Position numbers and translations under genes: made by a program
Part shown: in pieces, positions 49,187 to 61,183 of the stretch
Numbering within the stretch: position 1 is the first letter of the stretch
Layout: each line of letters opens with the position of its first letter
DNA from: Ignavibacteria bacterium
Lineage (GTDB): Bacteria > Bacteroidota > Ignavibacteria > Ignavibacteriales > SURF-24
Length of the DNA: 64,000 nucleotides
Direction of reading: 5' to 3'
Assembly: GCA_025612375.1 (NCBI GenBank)
Contig: JAAXKN010000014.1
Coordinates: 1-64,000 of the forward strand
Notes under the pieces: model-generated
Told to the model about the DNA's origin: nothing
Seen by the model: only the letters and a program-made list of their open reading frames with translations
The model's database searches: none

Positions 49187-52100
49187 TTACTTTATAAGAA
49201 GCATCTTTTTTGCCTCCCGGAACCGGACATTCCCGTCAGATCCCTTCGCCTCCATCGAATAGTAATAGACTCCTGAGGCAAAGGTGCTTCCGTCAAAACT
49301 CACCTCGTGATACCCCGCCTCGCTGAAGCTGTTTACTACATCTTTTACCAGGCGGCCTAACATGTCGTATACCTTTATATTCACAAACGCATCCTGCGGC
49401 AGCGAGTACTTTATAAGCGTCGCGGGATTAAAAGGATTCGGATAGTTCTGGAAAAGCGCGTACTCCTGCGGCATAAGCTTGCGGCTTTCTTCCTTAATAT
49501 AAGCGCTGCTGCCGATTAAAAGATCCATATCCATAAGCTTTGCGTATGAAGGCAGCGTCAAATCCGTTTCCTTCCTGAGGTCGTAAGCCTTGCTGAGCCT
49601 TTTATCTATAAGGCAGACCTCATACCCCTTGAAATTATCCGTTCCTTCCCACTTAAGCTTAAGCACCCGTTCCGTGTTATTCTTAACCCTCAGAGTAAAC
49701 TTCTGTCCTTCACCTACTTCACTCCTGAACTCTGTGAAAAGCTGCTTCCATCCGGTGGAAATATTGTTGTCTATAATGCGCATCCCCAGCTCCTCAAAGT
49801 CCCCCGGAGGCGCCATGGCATCCAGCGTGTCGTAGTCATCGGCAGAGTTTTTGTCGATCCCGGCTACCACGTGCGACTTTACCTCATCCTGGTCCATAAG
49901 GCTGAAGGAAATTGAGCTGTTATCATTAGAACCCTTCTCAGTAGAACCCTTCTTTGAAAGCAGCGCCATTGAAGCTGTGCCGCTTAAAACAGGCTTGTAT
50001 GCCAGCTTCAGCTCCTTAAGGTTCCGGCTGTTATAAAAGTAATACCCCTCATAAGGCGCCATAACCTGTGCGTCGCTGAAACCGCTCCCGCTCCAGCCCG
50101 ATATTTTCTCTGTTACGGAGTTTAACCCCTGGACATTTGACCAGAGTATCGGTATCTCAAAGGGATTGGTAATTATATTCCACCCCGCGTGATCCAGCTT
50201 TATGGAATATGTTCCTCCAGAAGAAAGCGCTACAGTCTTAACCTCTCCCGAAAGCTTAACCGGGTTTCTGCTCACAATCCAGAACCCTCTTCCCGGGGCG
50301 AAAGTAAAGACTGACGAGCCGTCGTACTCAACAAAATAGTCCGCGTCCTTGCCGTTGTCGTAATACATCGTCCAGTCCTTCTTTGCCTCTCCCTGCGCAT
50401 ACTGCGAAAGCTTTAGCGATGATGACTCGCCCGGAATGCCTATCATCCTGTAGCTCGATTTCTGTATGGGCGAGCTGAAGGCAAATACCACATCCGTCAG
50501 CGAAATTGCCTGCGCATACGTCCTGATCTTAAAGGCCTTATTAACAGTGTCTGTAGTAAGTGAGCTGTTATCCCTTATTCTCAGCATGCAGGAAGAAGAG
50601 CTGATATCGTTGGGCACATTCCATACGTAGCTGCCCTGTGAGGCCTGAATGTCCGAGGCAATCGTCTGCCAGTTCTGCCCGTTATCGGTCGAATACTCAA
50701 TGCTGATCCTGGAAACGTTGCTGCTCGTCCATGTAATGACATACTGGACGGACCCCACAATTTCTTCACCTCCCGTGGGACTCACCAGTTTCAGCTCGGG
50801 CTTCAGAGCTGTAAATGCCGCATCGCTGCCGTAGGCAATTCCGGCCAGGCTTATTGCTCTTACCCTGTAGTGATAGGTTGTGCCCGCAGTAAGCCCCGAC
50901 ACCTGTGCGCTCACCTCGGCATCTCCCGCGCCGTATAAAGGGCTTTCCTGTGCCTTGATAACCGTGCCGTAGCTTGTAGTTGTCCCGAACTCAAAGGAAA
51001 CCTGCGTGGGCAGGCTGCCCGCATTTACGGTGCCTCTTAAGTATGCAGAGCTGAGCGTAATGTCGGTTGCGCCTTTAGTTACAGCAGAGGGAGTGGAATA
51101 GACTAAAAAGCTGTTTGAAACCGCATTTAATGACGCGTTTGTTACATCGGTAATTCTTACCCTGTATTTTGAGGACACCTGCGAAGGAACCGTCCATTGG
51201 TAGCTCCTCTGTGAAGTGGCAACGGACGGGACTATCGTAATCCAGCTGCTGCCGTTATCGGTGGAGTACTCTATCTTTATGTTTGCTACGTTCTTGCTCC
51301 GCCAGGAAATGTTCTGCACTGTGCCCGTTAGCCACTGTTCGCTTCCTGTCGGCGAAGTAAGCGTAAGTGTAATGCCGTCTGTGGTAAATGTCTTGTCGTC
51401 GCCGTAAAAATTCCCAAGGCTGCTGTTGGCTCTGACCCTGAAGTGATAAATGTTCCCCTGCGAAAGCCCGTTTATCGAAGCGCTTACGTCTGTGGCCGAT
51501 GTTCCGCTTATGGTGTCCGGAGTTGCCGGTATGGTCAGTCCGTAGGCTGTTGAAGTCCCGTATTCAAAGATAACGGTTGAAATCACATTGCCGGGATTTA
51601 CAGAAGCATATAAGACAGCCGAGTTGAGCGTAATGTTTGAGGCGTCGCTTGTAATAACAGCGGGAAGCGCGTAGACAGAAAAAGCTTTTGACGTATAGCT
51701 TATGAGCGAATCCTGCGCATTGCTGATCCTTATTCTGTAAAGTGAGGAGAGTGTGTTCGGTACTATCCAGGGATACCTTCCTGTAATTGATGGTGTGCCG
51801 GGTGTAATGGTAATCCAGCTTTTCCCGTCGTCTGTCGAGTAATCAATTTTAAGGTCTTCCAGGTTTTTTACCGACCATGTAATGTACTGCAGCGACCCGG
51901 CTTTCCAGCTTTCTCCTCCTACGGGGGCTGAAATAGCAAGTTTTATGCTGTCGGTCGTAAATGTAATATCTTTCCCGTATGATGTACCCGCGGGGTTCTG
52001 CGCCGATACCCTGTAATGATAAGTCGTTGCAGGCAAAAGCCCCGTCAGTTCGGCCGATACATACACAAAGGATGTTCCTGAAACCGGGTTCTGCTGGGCA

Positions 52101-54394
52101 ACTATTCTTGAACCGTAAGCATCCGTGGTGCCGTATTCAAAGGCTGCTGTTGCCGGCGAATTCCCCGCCATTACAGAGCCCCTTATTACCGCAGAACTTA
52201 TTGTAATATTTGAAGGGGCATTGCTTACGGCTGTGGGTTCAGTAAAAACTGAAAACGGGCCGGAAGATGAACTTAAAAATAAATTCCCGGCGTCAATTAG
52301 CTTTATTTTGTAAGATGATGAAACCGAGTCGGGCACCTTCCACTGATAGCTCCCCTCAGAGGCCGGAGCGGCCTCGGCCAGCGTGATCCAGCTTTTCCCG
52401 CCGTCTAAAGAATAAAGTATCATAACAAAATTAACATTCCTGCTCGTCCAGGTTATTTTCTGCTCCGAGCCTGCGGGCCACTCTTCACCCCCTGTGGGGT
52501 AAGAAAGCGCAAGATTAATGCTGTCGGCAATAAACGTTACGTCGTCCCCTAAGACCGTCCCTGCTTCATTTGCAGCCCTGATCCTGAAGTGATATGTTGT
52601 TGCCGGTTTAAGCCCGCTTAAAACTGCAGTGACCTCAGTCTGACCTGTGCCGCTTACAGGGCTTTCAAGTGCGCTTATGGAATTGCCGTAGGCCGAGGTC
52701 GTTCCGTAATCAAAACTGACTGTGGTCATGGAATTCCCCGCGCTCAAAGAGCCGTTCAGCTTAACCGAGTTTACAGAAATGTCAGAAGCATTATTCGTTT
52801 TGGCCGCGGGCAGCGAATATACGGAAAAAGTGCCCGAGACGGAGTTTAAGGCCGGATTTGACTGCTCCGATGCCCTTATCACGTATTCAGAGGAGAGAAC
52901 GTCCGGCACCCGCCACGGGTAGGAGTTTCCCGAAGTAACCGGGTTCCCGTTATTTATTGAATTCCAGTTTAACCCGTTGTCTGTCGAATATTCTAAAATA
53001 ACCCCGCTGAGGTTCCTGCCCGACCATGCAATTGTGCGGGTTACACCCGAGCGCCACCTTTCACCTCCGGAAGGGGAGGTAAGTGAAAGTGTTATGGCGT
53101 CAGTTGTAAACGTCCTGTCGGAGCCGTAAACAACCCCTGCGCTGCTTTCTGCCTTAAGCCTGTAGTGATATGTTGTACCAGTTAAAAGCCCTTCCAGCCT
53201 GGCGCTTACGTCTGTCTGCATAGTCCCGTCTACCGGGCCCGGCGATGCATTTACTGTAGATCCGTAGGAGACGGTTGTGCCGTATTCAAATGTCACAGAT
53301 GTAGCTCCATTGCCCGCGCTTACCGTTCCCTTAAGTGTGGCTGAATTAACCGTTACATCGCTTGCGGCATTTGTCTGTGCCGAGGGAAGTGAATAAACAG
53401 TAAATGAATTTGAAACGGAAAAAAGCGTAGAGTTGGAAGCATCACTTATCCTCACCCTGTAGCCCGAGGATAAGTTGTCAGGCACCTTCCACGAATAGCT
53501 CCCCGAAGAGGCCTGCAGGCTTGAGGCAATTATGCTCCAGCTCTGACCGTTGTCTGCGGAGTAGCTGATCCTTACGTTTTTTATATTACGGCTGCTCCAG
53601 GTGATATCATGAGCCGAACCCGAGAGCCAGAGCTCTCCTCCCACGGGGGAAAGAAGTGTAAGCGACGGCTTTTCTGTGGTGAATGTAATGTCGTTCCCAT
53701 ATACTGTTCCCGCGGCGCTTTGGGCCCGTACTCTTACGTGGTATGTTGTACCTTCCAGAAGGCCTGCAGCCTGTGCGCTTACAGTTACGTCTGTTGCTCC
53801 ATTTACGGGGTTTTGTGCTGCGTTTACGCTTAAGCCGTAAGTAGTGTCCGTGCCGTATTCAAATGCCGCAGTTACATCCGAGTTGTTGGCATTAACAAGC
53901 CCGTTAAATGTTGCTGAACTGCCCGTTACATCGCTTGCCGGACTTGTGGAAACCGCGGGAAGCGTATAAACTGAAAAAGTATTGGACACAACATTTACAG
54001 AATCGTTAGCCGCGTCTGCAACTTTTATCCTGTATTGCGTGGATGCATATTTTGGCACGGCCCATAGAAAACTCCCGTGGAAAGCAGGCGTGCTTGCCGA
54101 GGCCACCTCCCATGTCTTCCCGTTGTCTGAAGAATAGCTGATAGTAACATTATCTATATTCTGGCTCTGCCAGGTGACATTCTGGTAAGTATCTCCGGGC
54201 CACGATTCACCCCCCGCGGGTGAGGTAAGAATAATTGTGTCTGCAGGTGCGGGATTTGTATCAAGCGCCGCGGAAAATATATATGCTATGCCTTTTGCTT
54301 CGCCCGGTTTCCCGGCATTCAATACCCCGGAGCGGGAAGCAGCGGCATTCAGGCAGACAGGAAGAAACATTAAAACAAACAGTAGCTTTTTCAT
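49187..54394 (-). CDS. Large repeat-containing T9SS surface protein
   Basis: 1735 residues from the ATG preceded by GAGGGCAA; signal peptide MKKLLFVLMFLPVCLNAAA. From about residue 55 to 1290 two modules alternate. Module A (about 95 residues) starts SPxGGExW, has ITWxSxN and YSxDNGxSW, and occurs seven times. Module B (about 90 residues, fibronectin III-like) runs from xSDxTxxSAxLxGxVxAG to TTYHYRVRAxSxAGxxYGxDxTFTT and occurs six times. A unique region (about 1300-1640) and a type A T9SS sorting domain (NYPNPFNPATLIKYSLPQDA, ending KKMLLIK) complete it. Likely an adhesin or surface-layer filament. Last gene of a three-gene minus-strand run. Confidence 0.88.
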   Translation of the reverse strand: MKKLLFVLMFLPVCLNAAASRSGVLNAGKPGEAKGIAYIFSAALDTNPAPADTIILTSPAGGESWPGDTYQNVTWQSQNIDNVTISYSSDNGKTWEVASASTPAFHGSFLWAVPKYASTQYRIKVADAANDSVNVVSNTFSVYTLPAVSTSPASDVTGSSATFNGLVNANNSDVTAAFEYGTDTTYGLSVNAAQNPVNGATDVTVSAQAAGLLEGTTYHVRVRAQSAAGTVYGNDITFTTEKPSLTLLSPVGGELWLSGSAHDITWSSRNIKNVRISYSADNGQSWSIIASSLQASSGSYSWKVPDNLSSGYRVRISDASNSTLFSVSNSFTVYSLPSAQTNAASDVTVNSATLKGTVSAGNGATSVTFEYGTTVSYGSTVNASPGPVDGTMQTDVSARLEGLLTGTTYHYRLKAESSAGVVYGSDRTFTTDAITLSLTSPSGGERWRSGVTRTIAWSGRNLSGVILEYSTDNGLNWNSINNGNPVTSGNSYPWRVPDVLSSEYVIRASEQSNPALNSVSGTFSVYSLPAAKTNNASDISVNSVKLNGSLSAGNSMTTVSFDYGTTSAYGNSISALESPVSGTGQTEVTAVLSGLKPATTYHFRIRAANEAGTVLGDDVTFIADSINLALSYPTGGEEWPAGSEQKITWTSRNVNFVMILYSLDGGKSWITLAEAAPASEGSYQWKVPDSVSSSYKIKLIDAGNLFLSSSSGPFSVFTEPTAVSNAPSNITISSAVIRGSVMAGNSPATAAFEYGTTDAYGSRIVAQQNPVSGTSFVYVSAELTGLLPATTYHYRVSAQNPAGTSYGKDITFTTDSIKLAISAPVGGESWKAGSLQYITWSVKNLEDLKIDYSTDDGKSWITITPGTPSITGRYPWIVPNTLSSLYRIRISNAQDSLISYTSKAFSVYALPAVITSDASNITLNSAVLYASVNPGNVISTVIFEYGTSTAYGLTIPATPDTISGTSATDVSASINGLSQGNIYHFRVRANSSLGNFYGDDKTFTTDGITLTLTSPTGSEQWLTGTVQNISWRSKNVANIKIEYSTDNGSSWITIVPSVATSQRSYQWTVPSQVSSKYRVRITDVTNASLNAVSNSFLVYSTPSAVTKGATDITLSSAYLRGTVNAGSLPTQVSFEFGTTTSYGTVIKAQESPLYGAGDAEVSAQVSGLTAGTTYHYRVRAISLAGIAYGSDAAFTALKPELKLVSPTGGEEIVGSVQYVITWTSSNVSRISIEYSTDNGQNWQTIASDIQASQGSYVWNVPNDISSSSCMLRIRDNSSLTTDTVNKAFKIRTYAQAISLTDVVFAFSSPIQKSSYRMIGIPGESSSLKLSQYAQGEAKKDWTMYYDNGKDADYFVEYDGSSVFTFAPGRGFWIVSRNPVKLSGEVKTVALSSGGTYSIKLDHAGWNIITNPFEIPILWSNVQGLNSVTEKISGWSGSGFSDAQVMAPYEGYYFYNSRNLKELKLAYKPVLSGTASMALLSKKGSTEKGSNDNSSISFSLMDQDEVKSHVVAGIDKNSADDYDTLDAMAPPGDFEELGMRIIDNNISTGWKQLFTEFRSEVGEGQKFTLRVKNNTERVLKLKWEGTDNFKGYEVCLIDKRLSKAYDLRKETDLTLPSYAKLMDMDLLIGSSAYIKEESRKLMPQEYALFQNYPNPFNPATLIKYSLPQDAFVNIKVYDMLGRLVKDVVNSFSEAGYHEVSFDGSTFASGVYYYSMEAKGSDGNVRFREAKKMLLIK

Positions 54395-54470
54395 TTGCCC
54401 TCTTTCATATCCCTTTGCATAAAATCTCATTCTAAAAAACTTTTCCCATGCACCAATTGCACGTAAATCC

Positions 54471-54872
54471 TTACCTGCGCGTTACAAATAGTGTCTCTGT
54501 TGCCGTATTGCCCCTGCTGTCCGTGGCGCTTATTACAAGAGCGTTATCCCCGGTCTTAAGCCCTACATCGGCGCTGAAGCTCCCGTCTTCCAGCAGTATC
54601 GCCCTCTGGCGGTTTACCGTAACAAGCCTTACACCGTTTAATGAAAGCGCCGTGCCTTTTACTGAAACAACGGCCTGGCTGCTTATAACTTTCGTCCCTT
54701 TGCCCGGAAGGGGAGAGCTTATTGAAATTACCGGCGGCGTAAGCTTTGCGCCTGAGTAGGCTCCCGCCTGGGTTTTTGGTACAATCCGCATTGGCGCCGA
54801 GGTGCCTTTAACCTGCGCCCGGGCACTGATGGCTGTAATCATAATGGCAATTATTATGAAGAATAGTTTCAT
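54471..54872 (-). CDS. Secreted Ig-like domain protein
   Basis: 133 residues with a signal peptide (MKLFFIIIAIMITAISARA). The rest forms one beta-sandwich: PPVISISSPLPGKGTKVISS, VSVKGTALSLNGVRLVTVNR, DGSFSADVGLKTGDNALVIS, ATDSRGNTATETLFVTRR. This is the bacterial Ig-like/glucodextranase-B type domain that often accompanies caspase-like or signalling proteins in Bacteroidota. No catalytic residues. Middle gene of the minus-strand run (gap of about 75 bases to the large repeat protein), so it may be secreted along with it. Confidence 0.72.
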   Translation of the reverse strand: MKLFFIIIAIMITAISARAQVKGTSAPMRIVPKTQAGAYSGAKLTPPVISISSPLPGKGTKVISSQAVVSVKGTALSLNGVRLVTVNRQRAILLEDGSFSADVGLKTGDNALVISATDSRGNTATETLFVTRR

Positions 54873-54971
54873 GTTGTCGTCTCTGCTAAAGAATTATTTC
54901 ATTGCACCGATGCTGAATCCCACTGCATCCTTCTTCCTGCATACTACTTCCTTCTTACTGCATACTTCCTT

Positions 54972-55460
54972 CTACGGCCTGCCCGGGGGAGTGGGAAGTC
55001 CTTGTGTGCCCGTCTGCCCCCCGGAATCACCCTGCGCGTTCCATGTAATTATTGCCGCCGCGGCGCCTCCTGCCACAAGTGCCGCCCCTACATAGTAGTA
55101 CCAGGCGGTTCCTTCTCCGGCAGCGTTTGCAGTAACCTCAAAGTAAAAGTCCTCACCGTCAGCGAACATCTTTTTTTCACTGGCAGAAAGTATCCAGATG
55201 ATCTTCCTTTTACCCGAGGCAAATTTGCCTCCGTTTACGTCTCCTTCAAGGTCTTCAGGCGTGTAGCTGAAGCTCGGCTGCGAAGTGCGTTTTAACTTCA
55301 CCCCTACTTCATATTCCTTGGATGGGTTGCCCTGGAGCTCATAGTAGATAAAAACCTTTCCCTCAGAGGCTTCGGAAGTTACTTTGATCTTTTCCTGCTG
55401 CGCCCTTAAAGGCCAGCATAGGCAGAGTATTATAAATACTGACAGCAGCGTTTTATTCAT
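54972..55460 (-). CDS. Envelope protein with beta domain and one C-terminal helix
   Basis: About 162 residues from MNKTLLSVFIILCLCWPLRA (signal peptide); an upstream ATG lacks support. Residues 25-120 form a beta domain: KVFIYYELQGNPSKEYEVGV, then GKFASGKRKIIWILSASEKK and DFYFEVTA. This pattern is common in Bacteroidota proteins next to, or fused with, formylglycine-enzyme-fold domains. A single hydrophobic helix (AWYYYVGAALVAGGAAAAII) and a Gly/Pro-rich tail end the protein. First gene of the minus-strand run, back to back with the FHA gene. Confidence 0.65.
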   Translation of the reverse strand: MNKTLLSVFIILCLCWPLRAQQEKIKVTSEASEGKVFIYYELQGNPSKEYEVGVKLKRTSQPSFSYTPEDLEGDVNGGKFASGKRKIIWILSASEKKMFADGEDFYFEVTANAAGEGTAWYYYVGAALVAGGAAAAIITWNAQGDSGGQTGTQGLPTPPGRP

Positions 55461-55971
55461 ATCACATGCTTTGCTTTTGTTGAAAATAAATTCGTTGCCT
55501 TTCAAACCGGTATCTGCGTCATTTCTTAATGACGCCTGTAATCAAACCTTCACGCTTTCTGTCCACCCCTTTTTATCCTTTCAGGTAAATACTCAAATAG
55601 AAGAGAAATATAAGATGACGGATCATTTTTCCTTTGGAAGGTGGATGGCTCTATAAAAAAGTATAAGATTTTAGGTGATTAAAAACAACATCACCCTGTC
55701 CCCGGTGATTTAAATCACCATTTCCGGGCCTGAATATACAAGATATACCCTTTTATGTTTATTATTTAAAGAATAGCGGCTCTTTTCACATGCCCTAAAG
55801 ATCAGGGCAAAGGCATAAGATTGAAAAATAGGGGTTTTCTTTTATATTTATTCAATAGGGGTGAATGTGCCGGAAGAAAAGAGACCCGTGAAAAAATGGA
55901 ATTCCGGGCATGGGAAACTATGCCTTTTGTGTATGCTTAAAATATAAAGTAATGAATGTGAGGATGAGAGT
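55461..55971. other. Divergent intergenic region of the 49-61 kb island
   Basis: About 510 bases. It contains the palindrome GGTGATTTAAATCACC at 55704 and AT-rich DNA with several TAT/TTTG words; a ribosome binding site (GAGGATGAGAGT) stands before the FHA gene. No gene or repeat family member was seen. Confidence 0.5.
55704..55719. promoter_or_regulatory. 16-base palindrome of Crp-like form
   Basis: GGTGATTTAAATCACC is a perfect palindrome with GTGA-N6-TCAC, the form read by Crp-type (RExxxR) helices. It lies about 250 bases from either start codon in the divergent region. A second loose GTGAT...ATCAC pair (55674-55694) stands just upstream. The Crp/Fnr protein in this window has an Fnr-type helix and may not be the one that binds here. 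Confidence 0.5.
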
Positions 55972-57075
55972 ATGAGAAAATATATTGTGCCGGCTTCAGC
56001 TTTACTGGTCTTATTCTGGTCCGCTATAATTTTTTCCCAGCCGAAGAAAATTGCAATTGAGGAGATTACTAAAAATTCCCGGTCCTTCAGCTCCCAGGCC
56101 GTGGAAGTTGAGGGGATTGTAACACAATACGTGCCGTCTACCTCATCTACAACAAGCTATTATATGATAAGCGGCCAGTTCGGCGGCTCCATAAAGGTTA
56201 ATACCTCCTCCACTGCACCCGAACTCTTTAAGCGCTACAGGGTTACAGGCACGGTATATATCGACCCTTCGAACAGTGAGGCTTTTATCAGTGAACGCTC
56301 AAGAAGCTCACTTGAACCTGCTTCAACTTCCGCCGCCTCTGAAGGAACAGACCCTCTGGTTATACTCCTTGTTGTGCTCTTTGTTCTCCTTGCCGCCATA
56401 TTTATCTATACACAGATCTCAAGGCGCAGGGAAAGAAATTATGAGGAGGTAATCTATGCGCTCCCTCTAACACCCCAAAGCGAAACAATGCATATTCCGG
56501 ATACCCGTGGGCCAGAGAAGCCGGTGGCTGAAAAGTATGAGCCTCCCCAGGCAAAACCGCGCATGGAGCCGGTAATTGAAAAACCTTCGCCCGGAATGGA
56601 AATGCCTCCAAGAGCGGAAATGCCTCCGCGCAGGGAAGTGCTTAAGACAGAGAAAAAAATACAGGCACCGTTCTTTGATTCTGATTTCAGGACTATAAAA
56701 ATAGTTCCTGCCGCTCCGCAGACAATCACCTTTATTCCCGGAGTCCTCGAAATCATCTCGGGCGACGACACCGGAAAATCTTTCAGAATTGCCGGATTCC
56801 CTACATCCGAGGGAAGCATTGTCTCAATCGGCAGGGAAGTGGTTACCGGCGAAAGGGCTTACGCCCACATCCAGCTTAATGAAAAGTTCAGAACCGTCTC
56901 GCGCAGGCAGGCTGAACTGATCTATAAGGACCATAAGCTCTTCGTCAGAAACTTAAGCGAGACAAACCTTACACAGGTCGACGGCGTGGAGCTTAAACCG
57001 GGCGAATGCGCGGAACTAAAACCTGATGCTAAAATCAGAACAGGAGAACTGGAATTTCAGTATAAAATAAATTAA
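55972..57075 (+). CDS. Membrane-anchored FHA domain protein
   Basis: 367 residues. Signal peptide (about 1-23), then an OB-fold-like exported domain (about 28-105: RSFSSQAVEVEGIVTQYVPS, FKRYRVTGTVYID), a single membrane helix (about 126-146: DPLVILLVVLFVLLAAIFIY), a charged and proline-rich linker with three EMPPR-like words, and a cytoplasmic FHA domain (about 255-365: SIGREVVTGERAY, HIQLNEKFRTVSRRQAEL, NLSETNLTQVDGVEL) that should bind phosphothreonine peptides. It looks like a one-pass sensor that couples an outside ligand to the kinase/phosphatase pair downstream. First of four tandem genes (gap 18 bases). Confidence 0.85.
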   Translation: MRKYIVPASALLVLFWSAIIFSQPKKIAIEEITKNSRSFSSQAVEVEGIVTQYVPSTSSTTSYYMISGQFGGSIKVNTSSTAPELFKRYRVTGTVYIDPSNSEAFISERSRSSLEPASTSAASEGTDPLVILLVVLFVLLAAIFIYTQISRRRERNYEEVIYALPLTPQSETMHIPDTRGPEKPVAEKYEPPQAKPRMEPVIEKPSPGMEMPPRAEMPPRREVLKTEKKIQAPFFDSDFRTIKIVPAAPQTITFIPGVLEIISGDDTGKSFRIAGFPTSEGSIVSIGREVVTGERAYAHIQLNEKFRTVSRRQAELIYKDHKLFVRNLSETNLTQVDGVELKPGECAELKPDAKIRTGELEFQYKIN

Positions 57076-57093
57076 TAATTCCCGGCTAAATAA

Positions 57094-58155
57094 ATGCCTG
57101 AACTTGAACTTTATTCGGTTTCATATACCGGCAGGAGAAGTAATAATGAGGATTCCTGCACCACACTGTCCTTTAACGGGAATGCGTATTTCCTCGCCGT
57201 GGCCGACGGTATGGGAGGCGCCGCAGGTGGAGAGGTCGCAAGCAGAATCGTAATCGAAACGGCTAAGAACTACCTGAACGATAATTTCACTACGCGCGTC
57301 TACCCCGAGGACCTGAAGGAAATGCTCCGGAGAATATTCGACCTGGCTCAGGAGGCGGTGGCTAAGGAACAAAAGGAAAAACCGGAACTGGAAGGCATGG
57401 GCTCTACTCTTGCATGCGCCCTTGTTGCAGGGGATAAATATGTAGTCGGCAACCTGGGCGACAGCAGGCTCTACCTCCTCAAACGCGGAAACCTCCAGCT
57501 TATGACGGAAGATCATACCTACGTCCGGCAGCTCCAGAAGGAGCTTGGCTCAAAGGCGGACCCCGCGAAACTCCAGCGCTTCAGCCACCTCCTTGTGCGC
57601 GCAATTAACGGTGGACAGGATAAGCCCGACATATTCCCCGAAGAGGAAATGTACTATACGCTCCATGAAGGCGAAGCGCTCCTCCTCTGCTCCGACGGGC
57701 TTCTGACGGATAAGATTTCTACTGAATATAAAACCCTGGAAGACTATATTGTCGGGACCCGGTCACTCAAGAGCGCGGCTGAACAGCTGGTTGCATACGC
57801 ATACGACTCCGGATCGGCGGACAATATTACCGTCGTGCTCGCTTGCTATGGGCACCTGGAACGCTCGGAGAGAAATGTGCTGAAAAGAAAATACCCCCCG
57901 GGGGATAGCCGCGCCCCGGGCGGTACAGAAAGGACACAGCTCAGGATATTTCTTAATATCTTCCTCGTCCTTTTTATAATTGCGGCTTCAGGAATATTGA
58001 TATACAGGAACTATTCGGCTGTTGAACATCATCCTCCCCAAAAAGCTCTTATAACGCCCGGAGGAAAGGATGCCGCGGTAAATAAAGTTGTCAAAGGTAT
58101 TAACCTGAAATCTTCAGATACAATAAAACTCACAAATACGAAAGCAGCACCATGA
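57094..58155 (+). CDS. PP2C-family Ser/Thr phosphatase with membrane helix
   Basis: 353 residues. Metal-binding and catalytic motifs of PP2C (PPM) are present: SNNEDSC near residue 15, ADGMGGAAGGEVAS, GDSRLYLLKRG, CSDGLLTDKI and SADNITVVLA. After the catalytic domain (1-250) comes a basic linker and one membrane helix (about 285-305: IFLNIFLVLFIIAASGILIY), as in mycobacterial PstP, so the phosphatase is held at the membrane. It should reverse phosphorylation by the kinase encoded 85 bases downstream. Tight spacing with the FHA gene indicates an operon. Confidence 0.92.
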   Translation: MPELELYSVSYTGRRSNNEDSCTTLSFNGNAYFLAVADGMGGAAGGEVASRIVIETAKNYLNDNFTTRVYPEDLKEMLRRIFDLAQEAVAKEQKEKPELEGMGSTLACALVAGDKYVVGNLGDSRLYLLKRGNLQLMTEDHTYVRQLQKELGSKADPAKLQRFSHLLVRAINGGQDKPDIFPEEEMYYTLHEGEALLLCSDGLLTDKISTEYKTLEDYIVGTRSLKSAAEQLVAYAYDSGSADNITVVLACYGHLERSERNVLKRKYPPGDSRAPGGTERTQLRIFLNIFLVLFIIAASGILIYRNYSAVEHHPPQKALITPGGKDAAVNKVVKGINLKSSDTIKLTNTKAAP

Positions 58156-58240
58156 CTAGTTCCATACTATTAAATTTTTCCTTTTCCTGTTTTATAATTC
58201 TTAATTCAAAACTTAAAATTCAAAATTCATAATTGTTCTC

Positions 58241-59869
58241 ATGCTTCCTGAAGAAGAAACAAAACTCTGCCCGTTCTGCAGGGAAATAATAAGGGCTTCG
58301 GCAATTAAATGCCGCTTCTGCGGCGAATGGCTCGAAGAGTCCTCAACTTCAGCTGACCCGATATCAGCTGTCAGAAGGGCTCTTGCGTCCAAATATAAAA
58401 TTGTCTACCAGCTGGGACACGGGGGGATGTCTGTTCTCTACAGGGCAAGCGAGATAAATACTGAACGCGACGTCGCCCTCAAGGTGCTGCCCCTTCACTT
58501 GTCTGAAGAAAGGGAATACGTGGGACGCTTCCACCGCGAGGCCGCGGCCCTCTCAAAACTAAATCATCCCAATATAATTAAGATCTTCGAGGAAGGCATT
58601 GAAAACGGCGTGCACTTTATGGCAATGGAATTCCTTGAAGGACGCGACCTGCATAAGCTACTTATGGCACGCGGACCCATATCAGTGGATGAAACGGCAA
58701 GGATAATTGCCCCCGTTGCAAAAGCCCTCGACTATGCGCATAAAAATACACTCGTTCACAGGGACGTTAAAAGCAGCAATATATTTATTACCAAGGAAGG
58801 GCGCCCCGTCCTTACGGATTTCGGAATAGCCCACATTACAACAAACGAAAACCAGCTTACCGTAACGGGCACCGTTATAGGTACGCCTGAATTTATGAGC
58901 CCCGAGCAGGCTGAAGGAAAACCGATCAACGGAAGAACTGACCTCTACAGCCTGGGCGTCGTGATGTATAACGCTATTACGGGCAGGTTCCCTTACCACG
59001 GCGACAGCCCACTAACTACTATCTATAAAATTATTAACGAAAACCATACGCCTGTAAATGAAGTAAAGGAACTGCCCGAATGGATGACTTTTGCAATTGA
59101 ATCCTGCCTGGAGAAAGATCCCGACAGGAGAATCAAAAGCGGCAATGAACTGGCCGACATCTTGACCAGAAGAAAAATTCCCGAAGGGGAGCTTACCAAA
59201 AACCTTAAGCTTGAGACCATAAGGCTCCGCAAAGAGGATATGAATGAAGTATTAAATGAAAATCCCGAAGCTCAGGCGGAAGAAGAAACACCTGAGGCTC
59301 CACAGGGAAGTAACGGCAAGGGCGGCATCTTCATGGACCTTGAAGAAGAGGAGCCGAAAAAGAAAAAGGCCGTTGTGCCGGCGCTTTTAATTGCTGCATT
59401 CCTCGTGCTTGTTGCGGCAATAGGATATACGGTCTATAACAGGTATTCTGAAAATCTCCCGGGCATTGAGCCTGAGAAAAATACAACCGCTGTAACAACA
59501 GAGCCTGAGAATAAAACGCTAACCGAACCTGAGGCTCCATTGAAAACAGAAAATAAAAGCAACCTGACAAATAAAGCAGAAGACAATACGGGCGCTCCCA
59601 CAGTAGAAAAAAGAAATACTCCGGTGCGGAACAATGTTGTTAAGACAACTCCGCCCGCAGTGCAGAGGGCAGCAGTAACAGTCCCCAATCTTGAAGGTAT
59701 GACAACGCAGGAGGCAGCAAGAGTTCTGCGCCGCCTGGGCCTAAGAAGCGGCGCCGTAACGCGCATTACATCAACCGCATCAAACTATAACCTTGTACTG
59801 CGCCAGATTCCCAAACCCGGCCGCCGCCTAAACGAAGGCTCCGCCGTTAATCTCATTGTAGGGGAATAG
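58241..59869 (+). CDS. Ser/Thr protein kinase with zinc ribbon and PASTA domain
   Basis: 542 residues. N-terminal zinc ribbon (Cys10, 13, 24, 27: CPFC...CRFC). Hanks-type kinase domain (about 52-310): LGHGGMS glycine loop, K81 in VALKVL, catalytic HRDVKSSN (173-180), DFG (193-195), and TPEFMSPEQ. A linker, one membrane helix (about 373-395) and a Thr/Asn/Pro-rich extracytoplasmic stretch lead to one PASTA domain (about 480-541: VPNLEGMTTQEAARVLRRLG). PASTA domains usually sense muropeptides or envelope state. The topology (kinase inside, PASTA outside) equals that of PknB, with the zinc ribbon an unusual extra. Confidence 0.93.
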   Translation: MLPEEETKLCPFCREIIRASAIKCRFCGEWLEESSTSADPISAVRRALASKYKIVYQLGHGGMSVLYRASEINTERDVALKVLPLHLSEEREYVGRFHREAAALSKLNHPNIIKIFEEGIENGVHFMAMEFLEGRDLHKLLMARGPISVDETARIIAPVAKALDYAHKNTLVHRDVKSSNIFITKEGRPVLTDFGIAHITTNENQLTVTGTVIGTPEFMSPEQAEGKPINGRTDLYSLGVVMYNAITGRFPYHGDSPLTTIYKIINENHTPVNEVKELPEWMTFAIESCLEKDPDRRIKSGNELADILTRRKIPEGELTKNLKLETIRLRKEDMNEVLNENPEAQAEEETPEAPQGSNGKGGIFMDLEEEEPKKKKAVVPALLIAAFLVLVAAIGYTVYNRYSENLPGIEPEKNTTAVTTEPENKTLTEPEAPLKTENKSNLTNKAEDNTGAPTVEKRNTPVRNNVVKTTPPAVQRAAVTVPNLEGMTTQEAARVLRRLGLRSGAVTRITSTASNYNLVLRQIPKPGRRLNEGSAVNLIVGE

Positions 59870-59900
59870 AATTTACGGATATGATGACTAGCCCCGACCT

Positions 59901-59958
59901 GAATAGCCACGAGCTTTAGCTCGTGGGAAACGGGCAAAAAAAATTCGGGCTTTAGCCC
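59901..59958. repeat. REP-like hairpin (ATAGCCAC class), copy 3
   Basis: CCACGAGCT-tt-AGCTCGTGG (59907-59926) flanked by GAATAG and GAA, the same as the copy at 1-29. A second small hairpin GGGCT-tt-AGCCC (59947-59958) follows. It lies between the kinase and FGE-like genes on the plus strand. Confidence 0.75.
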
Positions 59959-59989
59959 CAGATTATCCCATAAAAATATTTGACGAAAT

Positions 59990-61183
59990 ATGCGTATTAT
60001 CAAAACAATAATATTCTTCCTCCTCTTCCTCTCAGGCACAATAATGCCCCAGCAGATAGAGGCCGTCTATGAGGACCTTAAAACCGATCCCTTCGCTGGT
60101 CAGGAAGCCCCCATTCCCATCGGAATCCTTAAATTTAACGGCCCCGGCACTCTCGAAAGCCGGTTCTACGATATGCTGAAATCCCAGACCGGAATCCATA
60201 ATAAATTCCTCATTTTCCCTTACGACGCACTCCTGGAACAGGAGAAGACATTAGGCTTAAAAAACCTCGACGCCAAAGACAGGCGCACGCTTGCTTCACT
60301 GAACAGCAACCTCGACATCCGTTTCCTCGTAACCGGCGATGCTTCCAATGACGGCAGCTTTACACTCCGCCTCATACGCGCCTCCGACGGCCGCGAGGTC
60401 TATTCGGCAAAATATTCCCTGAGCATTAACTCCACCCCGGTAAAAGACGCCGTCAGACTCTTCAGCGATAAAAAAACTGCTCTCTATAAGGAAGCTGCAA
60501 TTATTCCACAGATGGTAAAGGTGGAAGGAGGCTGGTTCGATATGGGAAGCCCGGAGGGGGATAACGACGAAAAGCCCGTCCACAGGGTTAAAGTCGACAG
60601 CTTTGCTATAGCTAAATATGAAGTCACTTTCGACGAATACGACCGCTTCTGCGAAATGACAGGCCGCCCTAAACCCGGTGACAACGGATGGGGAAGGGGA
60701 AAAAAACCAGTTATAAATGTAAGCTGGACGGACGCCAGTGAATACTGCCGCTGGCTTAGCAGCCTGACCGGCGTGAGCTTCAGGCTCCCTACCGAGGCCG
60801 AATGGGAATTTGCGGCAAAAGGAGGCAACAGGAATAAAGGTTTCCGCTTCAGCGGCAGCGATAACCTTGACGATGTCGCCTGGAACAGCACTAACTCCGG
60901 AGGCACCACGCACGAGGTGGGTCAGAAAAAGCCGAATGAGCTGGAACTCTATGATATGAACGGAAACGTTTGGGAGTGGTGCAGCGACTGGTATAACGAA
61001 ACCTACTACGCTTCAGGCTCCCAAAGCAATCCCAAAGGACCCCTTTCAGGCATGTACCATTCGCTCCGGGGCGGAAGCTGGTACAGCTTTAACAGCCGCG
61101 TCTGCCGCACAACTGCGCGCGTTCGCGAGGCTTCGGACTATATGGATAACACCACGGGCTTCAGGGTTGTAAGGGACCTGTAA
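59990..61183 (+). CDS. Secreted FGE-sulfatase-fold (SUMF1-like) protein
   Basis: 397 residues. Signal peptide (MRIIKTIIFFLLFLSGTIMP); a CsgG/TolB-like N-terminal domain (about 40-150: IPIGILKFNGPGTLESRFYD, DIRFLVTGDASND); then a formylglycine-generating-enzyme fold (about 170-397: GGWFDMGSPEGDNDEKPVHR, INVSWTDASEYCRWLSS, RLPTEAEWEFAAKGG, MNGNVWEWCSDWY, LRGGSWYSFNSRVCRTTARV). Only one Cys is in the RGGSW region, where active copper FGE enzymes have a pair, so it is probably non-catalytic and acts as a binding module. Fourth gene of the operon, though a REP hairpin separates it from the kinase gene. Confidence 0.88.
   Translation: MRIIKTIIFFLLFLSGTIMPQQIEAVYEDLKTDPFAGQEAPIPIGILKFNGPGTLESRFYDMLKSQTGIHNKFLIFPYDALLEQEKTLGLKNLDAKDRRTLASLNSNLDIRFLVTGDASNDGSFTLRLIRASDGREVYSAKYSLSINSTPVKDAVRLFSDKKTALYKEAAIIPQMVKVEGGWFDMGSPEGDNDEKPVHRVKVDSFAIAKYEVTFDEYDRFCEMTGRPKPGDNGWGRGKKPVINVSWTDASEYCRWLSSLTGVSFRLPTEAEWEFAAKGGNRNKGFRFSGSDNLDDVAWNSTNSGGTTHEVGQKKPNELELYDMNGNVWEWCSDWYNETYYASGSQSNPKGPLSGMYHSLRGGSWYSFNSRVCRTTARVREASDYMDNTTGFRVVRDL

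Follow-up and report, generated by a model that had tools for sequence, protein, structure and literature searches.

The window, which is the whole stretch of 64,000 nucleotides analysed from the genome of an Ignavibacteria bacterium, contains an island of seven genes that would seem to form one envelope-signalling system of two modules, namely a membrane phosphorylation circuit and an export and surface unit consisting of a membrane protein, m3, and a giant surface protein, with the circuit acting on the m3/giant pair. A probability of roughly 0.4 is given to this reading. The genes for an FHA protein, a PP2C phosphatase, a Ser/Thr kinase and an FGE-fold protein are on the plus strand, divergent from those for m3, m2 and the giant on the minus strand (Table 1). 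The strongest result of the analysis is that proteins with a PPxRP tail, such as m3, and giants with a common core make up a near-obligate pair. Key parts of the circuit are found with this pair in independent lineages. To our knowledge few outputs of Ser/Thr kinase circuits have been described in bacteria bearing a T9SS. Repeated genetic linkage with a surface giant and its defined membrane partner gives such a circuit a concrete, testable output, and the island looks like a real, if putative, route by which internal signalling could be coupled to the cell surface.

Table 1. Coordinates of the features of the island, numbered from the first letter of the window.
Feature	Position	Strand	Details
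Giant surface protein	49187..54430	-	1747 aa, start probably residue 13; Fn3-like and Kre9/KNH-like repeats, core, T9SS sorting tail
Por_Secre_tail of giant, residues 1663-1730	49241..49444	-	33.2 bits against a cut-off of 27
Core of giant, residues 1311-1645	49496..50500	-	Also found in the protein next to almost every PPxRP-tail protein
m2, secreted Glucodextran_B Ig-like protein	54471..54872	-	Pfam
m3, PPxRP-tail protein	54972..55505	-	ATG start 55460, 162 aa; signal peptide, beta ectodomain, TM helix, short tail
C-terminal PPGRP of m3	54975..54989	-	Family alignment
Divergent intergenic region	55461..55971	none	Conserved blocks shared with sister species
FHA protein	55972..57075	+	Signal peptide, periplasmic OB-like domain, TM 129-147, cytoplasmic FHA
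OB-like ectodomain of FHA protein, residues 27-116	56050..56319	+	Weak profile matches, model
FHA domain	56821..57039	+	Pfam; phosphothreonine site keeps Arg, Ser and Asn, His replaced by Gln
PP2C phosphatase	57094..58155	+	Pfam; C-terminal TM helix 285-303
Ser/Thr kinase	58241..59869	+	Zinc ribbon, Hanks kinase domain, TM 377-395, one PASTA
PASTA domain of kinase, residues 479-541	59675..59863	+	Pfam
Secreted FGE-fold protein	59990..61183	+	Pfam FGE; signal peptide predicted

The gene list of the earlier note, which had been drawn up from the letters of the window, is largely borne out. All seven open reading frames are found at the positions and on the strands that it gave. The FHA, PP2C, kinase and PASTA domains score above their Pfam cut-offs, with one TM helix predicted in each of the three proteins, as do the fn3/Kre9-type repeats and Por_Secre_tail of what it had called a T9SS repeat protein and the Glucodextran_B domain of its Ig-like protein, m2. 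Signal peptides are predicted on the giant, m2 and the FGE-fold protein. Two assignments hold in part. The zinc ribbon of the kinase can be read from its CPFC...CRFC motif, with a weak Pfam call in the G282 orthologue, and the protein described as CsgG/FGE has an FGE domain above the Pfam cut-off behind its signal peptide, while the proposed N-terminal CsgG domain gave no Pfam match. The ectodomain of the FHA protein, put forward as an exported OB fold, is probably one. The profile matches to OB proteins are non-significant, and an AlphaFold model (pLDDT 45) gave a Foldseek list made up mostly of OB domains, all with E > 1e-3. The models of this protein and of m3 (pLDDT 57, with scattered Foldseek matches) are poor because the alignments held two sequences only. 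In a sister species of the same genus (MAG Ignavibacteria bin-C14, L009/L010) all seven genes are present in the same order and on the same strands, with 61-80% identity.

The near-obligate pairing is seen from both sides. The core of the giant, which is about 320 residues long and precedes the T9SS tail, has no supported Pfam family and occurs in 49 of the 164 genomes of the order, mostly as a single copy. The genome from which the window comes has two core giants, both of which adjoin m3 genes. A core giant lies within three genes and on the same strand for 41 of 54 tail proteins; the other 13 are mostly at contig or fetch edges or beside weak cores, L066 being the only apparent true negative. 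A tail protein is likewise present for 41 of the 56 cores, and several of the remainder are at contig edges. The giant resembles other T9SS surface proteins of Bacteroidota in its Por_Secre_tail and its repeat-rich, secreted build, but differs from them in its non-Pfam core and its dedicated membrane partner.

m3 founds an undescribed family whose members have a signal peptide, a beta ectodomain and a single TM helix, after which a short tail ends in a near-invariant PPxRP. Tyr40, Gly73, Trp89, Asp104, Phe107 and the terminal Pro159, Arg161 and Pro162 are invariant in an alignment of 23 members. No Pfam family matched m3 or more than one member of the family, and a match for the family in the PDB was not found. 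Among the 54 tail proteins, taken from this and other classes, the PPxRP motif lies at most four residues from the C-terminus in 40, and the tail, with a median length of 20 residues, follows a Gly/Ala-rich TM helix. The same helix and tail are also fused to PEGA ectodomains (L012, L033 and L049) and to ectodomains that read as TPR- or Ig-like in proteins of 239-285 residues, each beside a core giant (L067, L074, L088 and L098-L100); on this comparison of predicted architectures the TM helix and PPxRP tail are a module attached to unrelated ectodomains. The signal peptide suggests that the tail of m3 is cytoplasmic, the charge balance around the TM helix being no proof. Since its C-terminus is near-invariant, its partner near-obligate and no relative is present in Pfam or the PDB, the family offers a good entry to how signals from inside the cell reach T9SS surface proteins.

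Conserved Ser/Thr residues are absent from the m3 tails. The tail in G282 has no Ser/Thr at all, and tails linked to kinases are no richer in these residues than other tails, so that the FHA domain is unlikely, as a general rule, to recognise a phosphothreonine in the m3 tail.

The pair is found more commonly beside CHASE2 and caspase genes than beside kinases, which counts against a single system. At about 20 loci it is part of a whole or partial run of CHASE2, FecR-like protein, papain-like C1 peptidase, m3, Glucodextran_B+caspase protein and giant, and an intact second copy, with CHASE2, FecR-like protein, papain-like peptidase, m3, caspase and core giant, is present in the window genome itself (G000:C2:306800-315100; L051:5806-14029). 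A CHASE2-cyclase is near the pair instead at L049 and L063. The literature search found no paper on CHASE2 with FecR and caspase, nor on CHASE2 with T9SS. These operons are like the window in the order of m3, Glucodextran_B protein and core giant, the giant core being of common ancestry, and m2 is therefore best viewed as the caspase-less remnant of their Glucodextran_B+caspase protein. It has 133 residues in the window and 246 in the sister species (L009:8303-9043), with the caspase missing from both. The window trio is derived from the caspase type, but no CHASE2, FecR, C1 peptidase or caspase gene was found beside it; all four have been lost, and the trio adjoins a kinase set. In a tree of 59 giant cores the window giant nests with the caspase-type giant of L039 at 98 SH-aLRT and, lying within the caspase-type clade, its pairing with a kinase set is therefore one of several separate joinings. 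The kinase label needs at least six changes on this tree, with the starred branches forcing six.

It is conceivable that the m3-giant-caspase operons serve in cell death or kin recognition, the window island being a self/non-self or conflict device in which a kinase has taken the place of the caspase. The caspase, papain-like peptidase and CHASE2 of the commoner operons would fit such a role, as would the FGE-fold protein, whose nearest relative in the PDB is the Treponema variable protein TvpA. The window island, however, has neither a nuclease, a pore former nor an immunity gene, and with its caspase lost this explanation is very improbable.

FHA-PP2C-kinase sets are accompanied by the tail/giant pair in several other lineages. 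In G282, from another family of the order, genes for FHA, PP2C, PASTA kinase and FGE proteins are followed on one strand by a PEGA ectodomain fused to the m3 TM helix and tail and by a WD40 protein with giant-type repeats, in which the contig ends. In the genus g12 (G132, G276 and G287; L067, L098 and L099) a co-directional run encodes an FHA-TM-SLT transglycosylase, PP2C, a kinase with PEGA, a PPxRP-tail protein and a core giant; in G287 (L099) 19-75 bp separate the genes. G271 has the same gene set. In G407, a genome of a distant class, a core giant is accompanied by a PEGA-kinase, OB-FHA protein, PP2C, VWA protein and PEGA+m3 protein, and in G295 m3 and two core giants lie about 11 kb beyond the FHA-PP2C-kinase set. 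Smaller combinations are a kinase, tail protein and giant in G476 and an LRR-kinase near a giant and tail protein in G219. Sets without the pair are found in G265 and G502 and in G445, G392 and G376 (L011, L035, L030-L032); those of G265 and G502 consist of FHA, PP2C and kinase only, next to a large NHL/TPR protein. In other classes, three genomes combine PP2C with a TPR-like protein, OB-FHA and a WD40-bearing zinc-ribbon kinase.

The earlier note had proposed that the quartet and trio are one unit and had suggested comparing gene neighbourhoods across relatives. The outcome is mixed and on balance favourable. The exact pairing of trio and quartet is confined to the genus, where it is kept in the sister species, the trio is found away from kinases at about 20 other loci and some kinase sets have no trio; FHA, PP2C and kinase with a tail protein and giant nevertheless recur elsewhere, so that the unit is supported in the form of repeated linkage. 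Outside the window genus, a tail protein lies within about 15 kb of the set in three of eight FHA/PP2C/kinase lineages (G282, G295 and G407). Assuming that about a third of genomes carry one tail/giant pair and that a genome measures 4 Mb, chance would place a pair within 15 kb of about 0.3% of FHA sets, which gives a rough P of ~1e-6. In the opposite direction, about 45 loci fetched for the tail or core rather than the kinase contain the full FHA-PP2C-kinase set in two lineages (g12 and G271) against about 0.3 expected, a weak test taken alone.

These figures bear directly on the possibility that the island is two unrelated modules, a self-standing PASTA-type kinase/PP2C/FHA circuit for cell-wall growth and a degraded CHASE2/caspase surface operon, brought together by chance or shared inheritance. 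Such an origin would account for the trio being without kinases at most loci and the quartet occurring without the trio, and for the decay of m2, which has lost its caspase and differs so much in length between sister species. The modules are also on opposite strands in the window and so are not one transcript, which counts against the single-system reading. The estimated rarity of chance proximity argues the other way, as do the co-directional runs in g12 and G271, reached through the tail and giant and not through FHA, and the intact and conserved state of m3 and the giant. Independence of the modules is thus considered somewhat unlikely, though it deserves serious weight.

The kinase is of the bitopic Hanks type, with the PASTA domain outside and, as read from its sequence, HRD and DFG motifs and a GTPEFMSPE loop. 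It is one of four kinases in the window genome, whereas the FHA domain of the island is the sole one. The gap between the PP2C and kinase genes is 85 bp and their adjacency is kept in G247, G282, G265 and G502. The clustering of a PASTA kinase, PP2C and FHA reader, with a bitopic kinase whose PASTA domain is outside, resembles the actinobacterial fhaA-fhaB-pstP-rodA-pbpA-pknA-pknB locus and the prpC-prkC pair of Firmicutes. The window set differs from these in having a single PASTA domain, an N-terminal zinc ribbon, an FGE-fold partner and a membrane-bound FHA protein with a periplasmic OB domain (SLT in relatives), and in lacking rodA and pbpA. Its proteins fall below the NCBIfam equivalog cut-offs, scoring 351 bits against 450 for Stk1/PknB, 177 against 230 for Stp1 and 19 against 125 for FhaB. 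No paper was found in the literature that joins an OB fold, FHA and a PASTA kinase.

In mycobacteria PstP, FhaA/FhaB and PknB share one cell-wall locus (PMC6554272), and by analogy the circuit of the island could govern peptidoglycan or division only, the surface pair being passive cargo whose expression tracks the state of the envelope. The PASTA domain, together with the SLT domains of the FHA partners in g12 and G271, is in keeping with this. Neither rodA/pbpA nor division genes, however, are found beside the window set or among the annotated genes of L012 and L067, and a role restricted to the cell wall appears improbable. The combination of FHA, PP2C and kinase is also reminiscent of the FHA/PppA/PpkA set of the T6SS. 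The window FHA protein, however, falls far short of the T6SS TagH model in score, and a search of the window genome for VipB gave no match while the E. coli control was positive, which rules out a T6SS link and agrees with the statement of the earlier note that T6SS genes are absent.

If the island is a single two-module system, as preferred here, the PASTA kinase and membrane PP2C would control the phosphorylation state of Thr sites, and the bitopic OB-FHA protein would bind the phosphorylated form and tie phosphorylation to the periplasm. The periplasmic PASTA, OB and FGE-fold parts may sense peptidoglycan or the state of the periplasm; peptidoglycan is suggested because of the PASTA domain on the window kinase and the SLT domain on the FHA partners of g12 and G271. 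The circuit would then alter the assembly, export or anchoring of the m3/giant pair, probably through m3, with the ectodomain of m3 meeting the giant and its tail reaching the cytoplasm. Control by the phospho-circuit of how the adhesin is displayed on the surface, as the earlier note had proposed, would be a presumed consequence.

A broader proposal is that the PPxRP-tail protein and core giant are a general, undescribed signal-to-surface coupler of the FCB group. On this view the conserved cytoplasmic C-terminus would be the docking point for interchangeable inner-membrane modules, whether CHASE2 with its caspase and peptidase, a CHASE2-cyclase or the FHA/PP2C/Ser-Thr kinase set, and the phospho-version would license the T9SS giant by opening peptidoglycan through SLT or by sensing it through PASTA and OB. 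The proposal is speculative and rather unlikely.

In the FGE-fold protein the aligned bacterial FGE segment RGGSYLCHDSYC is replaced by RGGSWYSFNSRV. The catalytic cysteine pair is absent, which rules out an active formylglycine enzyme. A natural fusion of an m3 ectodomain and an FGE domain is present in G271 (L106:9255-10418; G271:C24), which suggests that the FGE-fold protein and the m3 ectodomain may act together.

Strong matches to the FHA profile are found in seven of the 164 genomes of the order; a match in G250, with seven stops, was taken as noise, no FHA, PP2C or kinase relative being present in its open reading frames. At the phosphothreonine site G265 retains His where the window genus, G282 and G295 have Gln. 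The FHA proteins at L067:12843-14333, L098:5826-7307 and L103:12906-14378, upstream of PP2C and PEGA-kinase, each combine a single TM helix with an SLT lytic transglycosylase domain in the periplasm and may cut peptidoglycan in a phospho-dependent manner. A conserved secreted NHL/TPR protein of about 1130 residues is divergent from FHA-PP2C-kinase sets that have no tail/giant pair (L011:6237-9635 and L035:5843-9232), and in another class (L030-L032) OB-FHA, PP2C and a WD40-fused zinc-ribbon kinase are accompanied by a conserved protein of about 500 residues.
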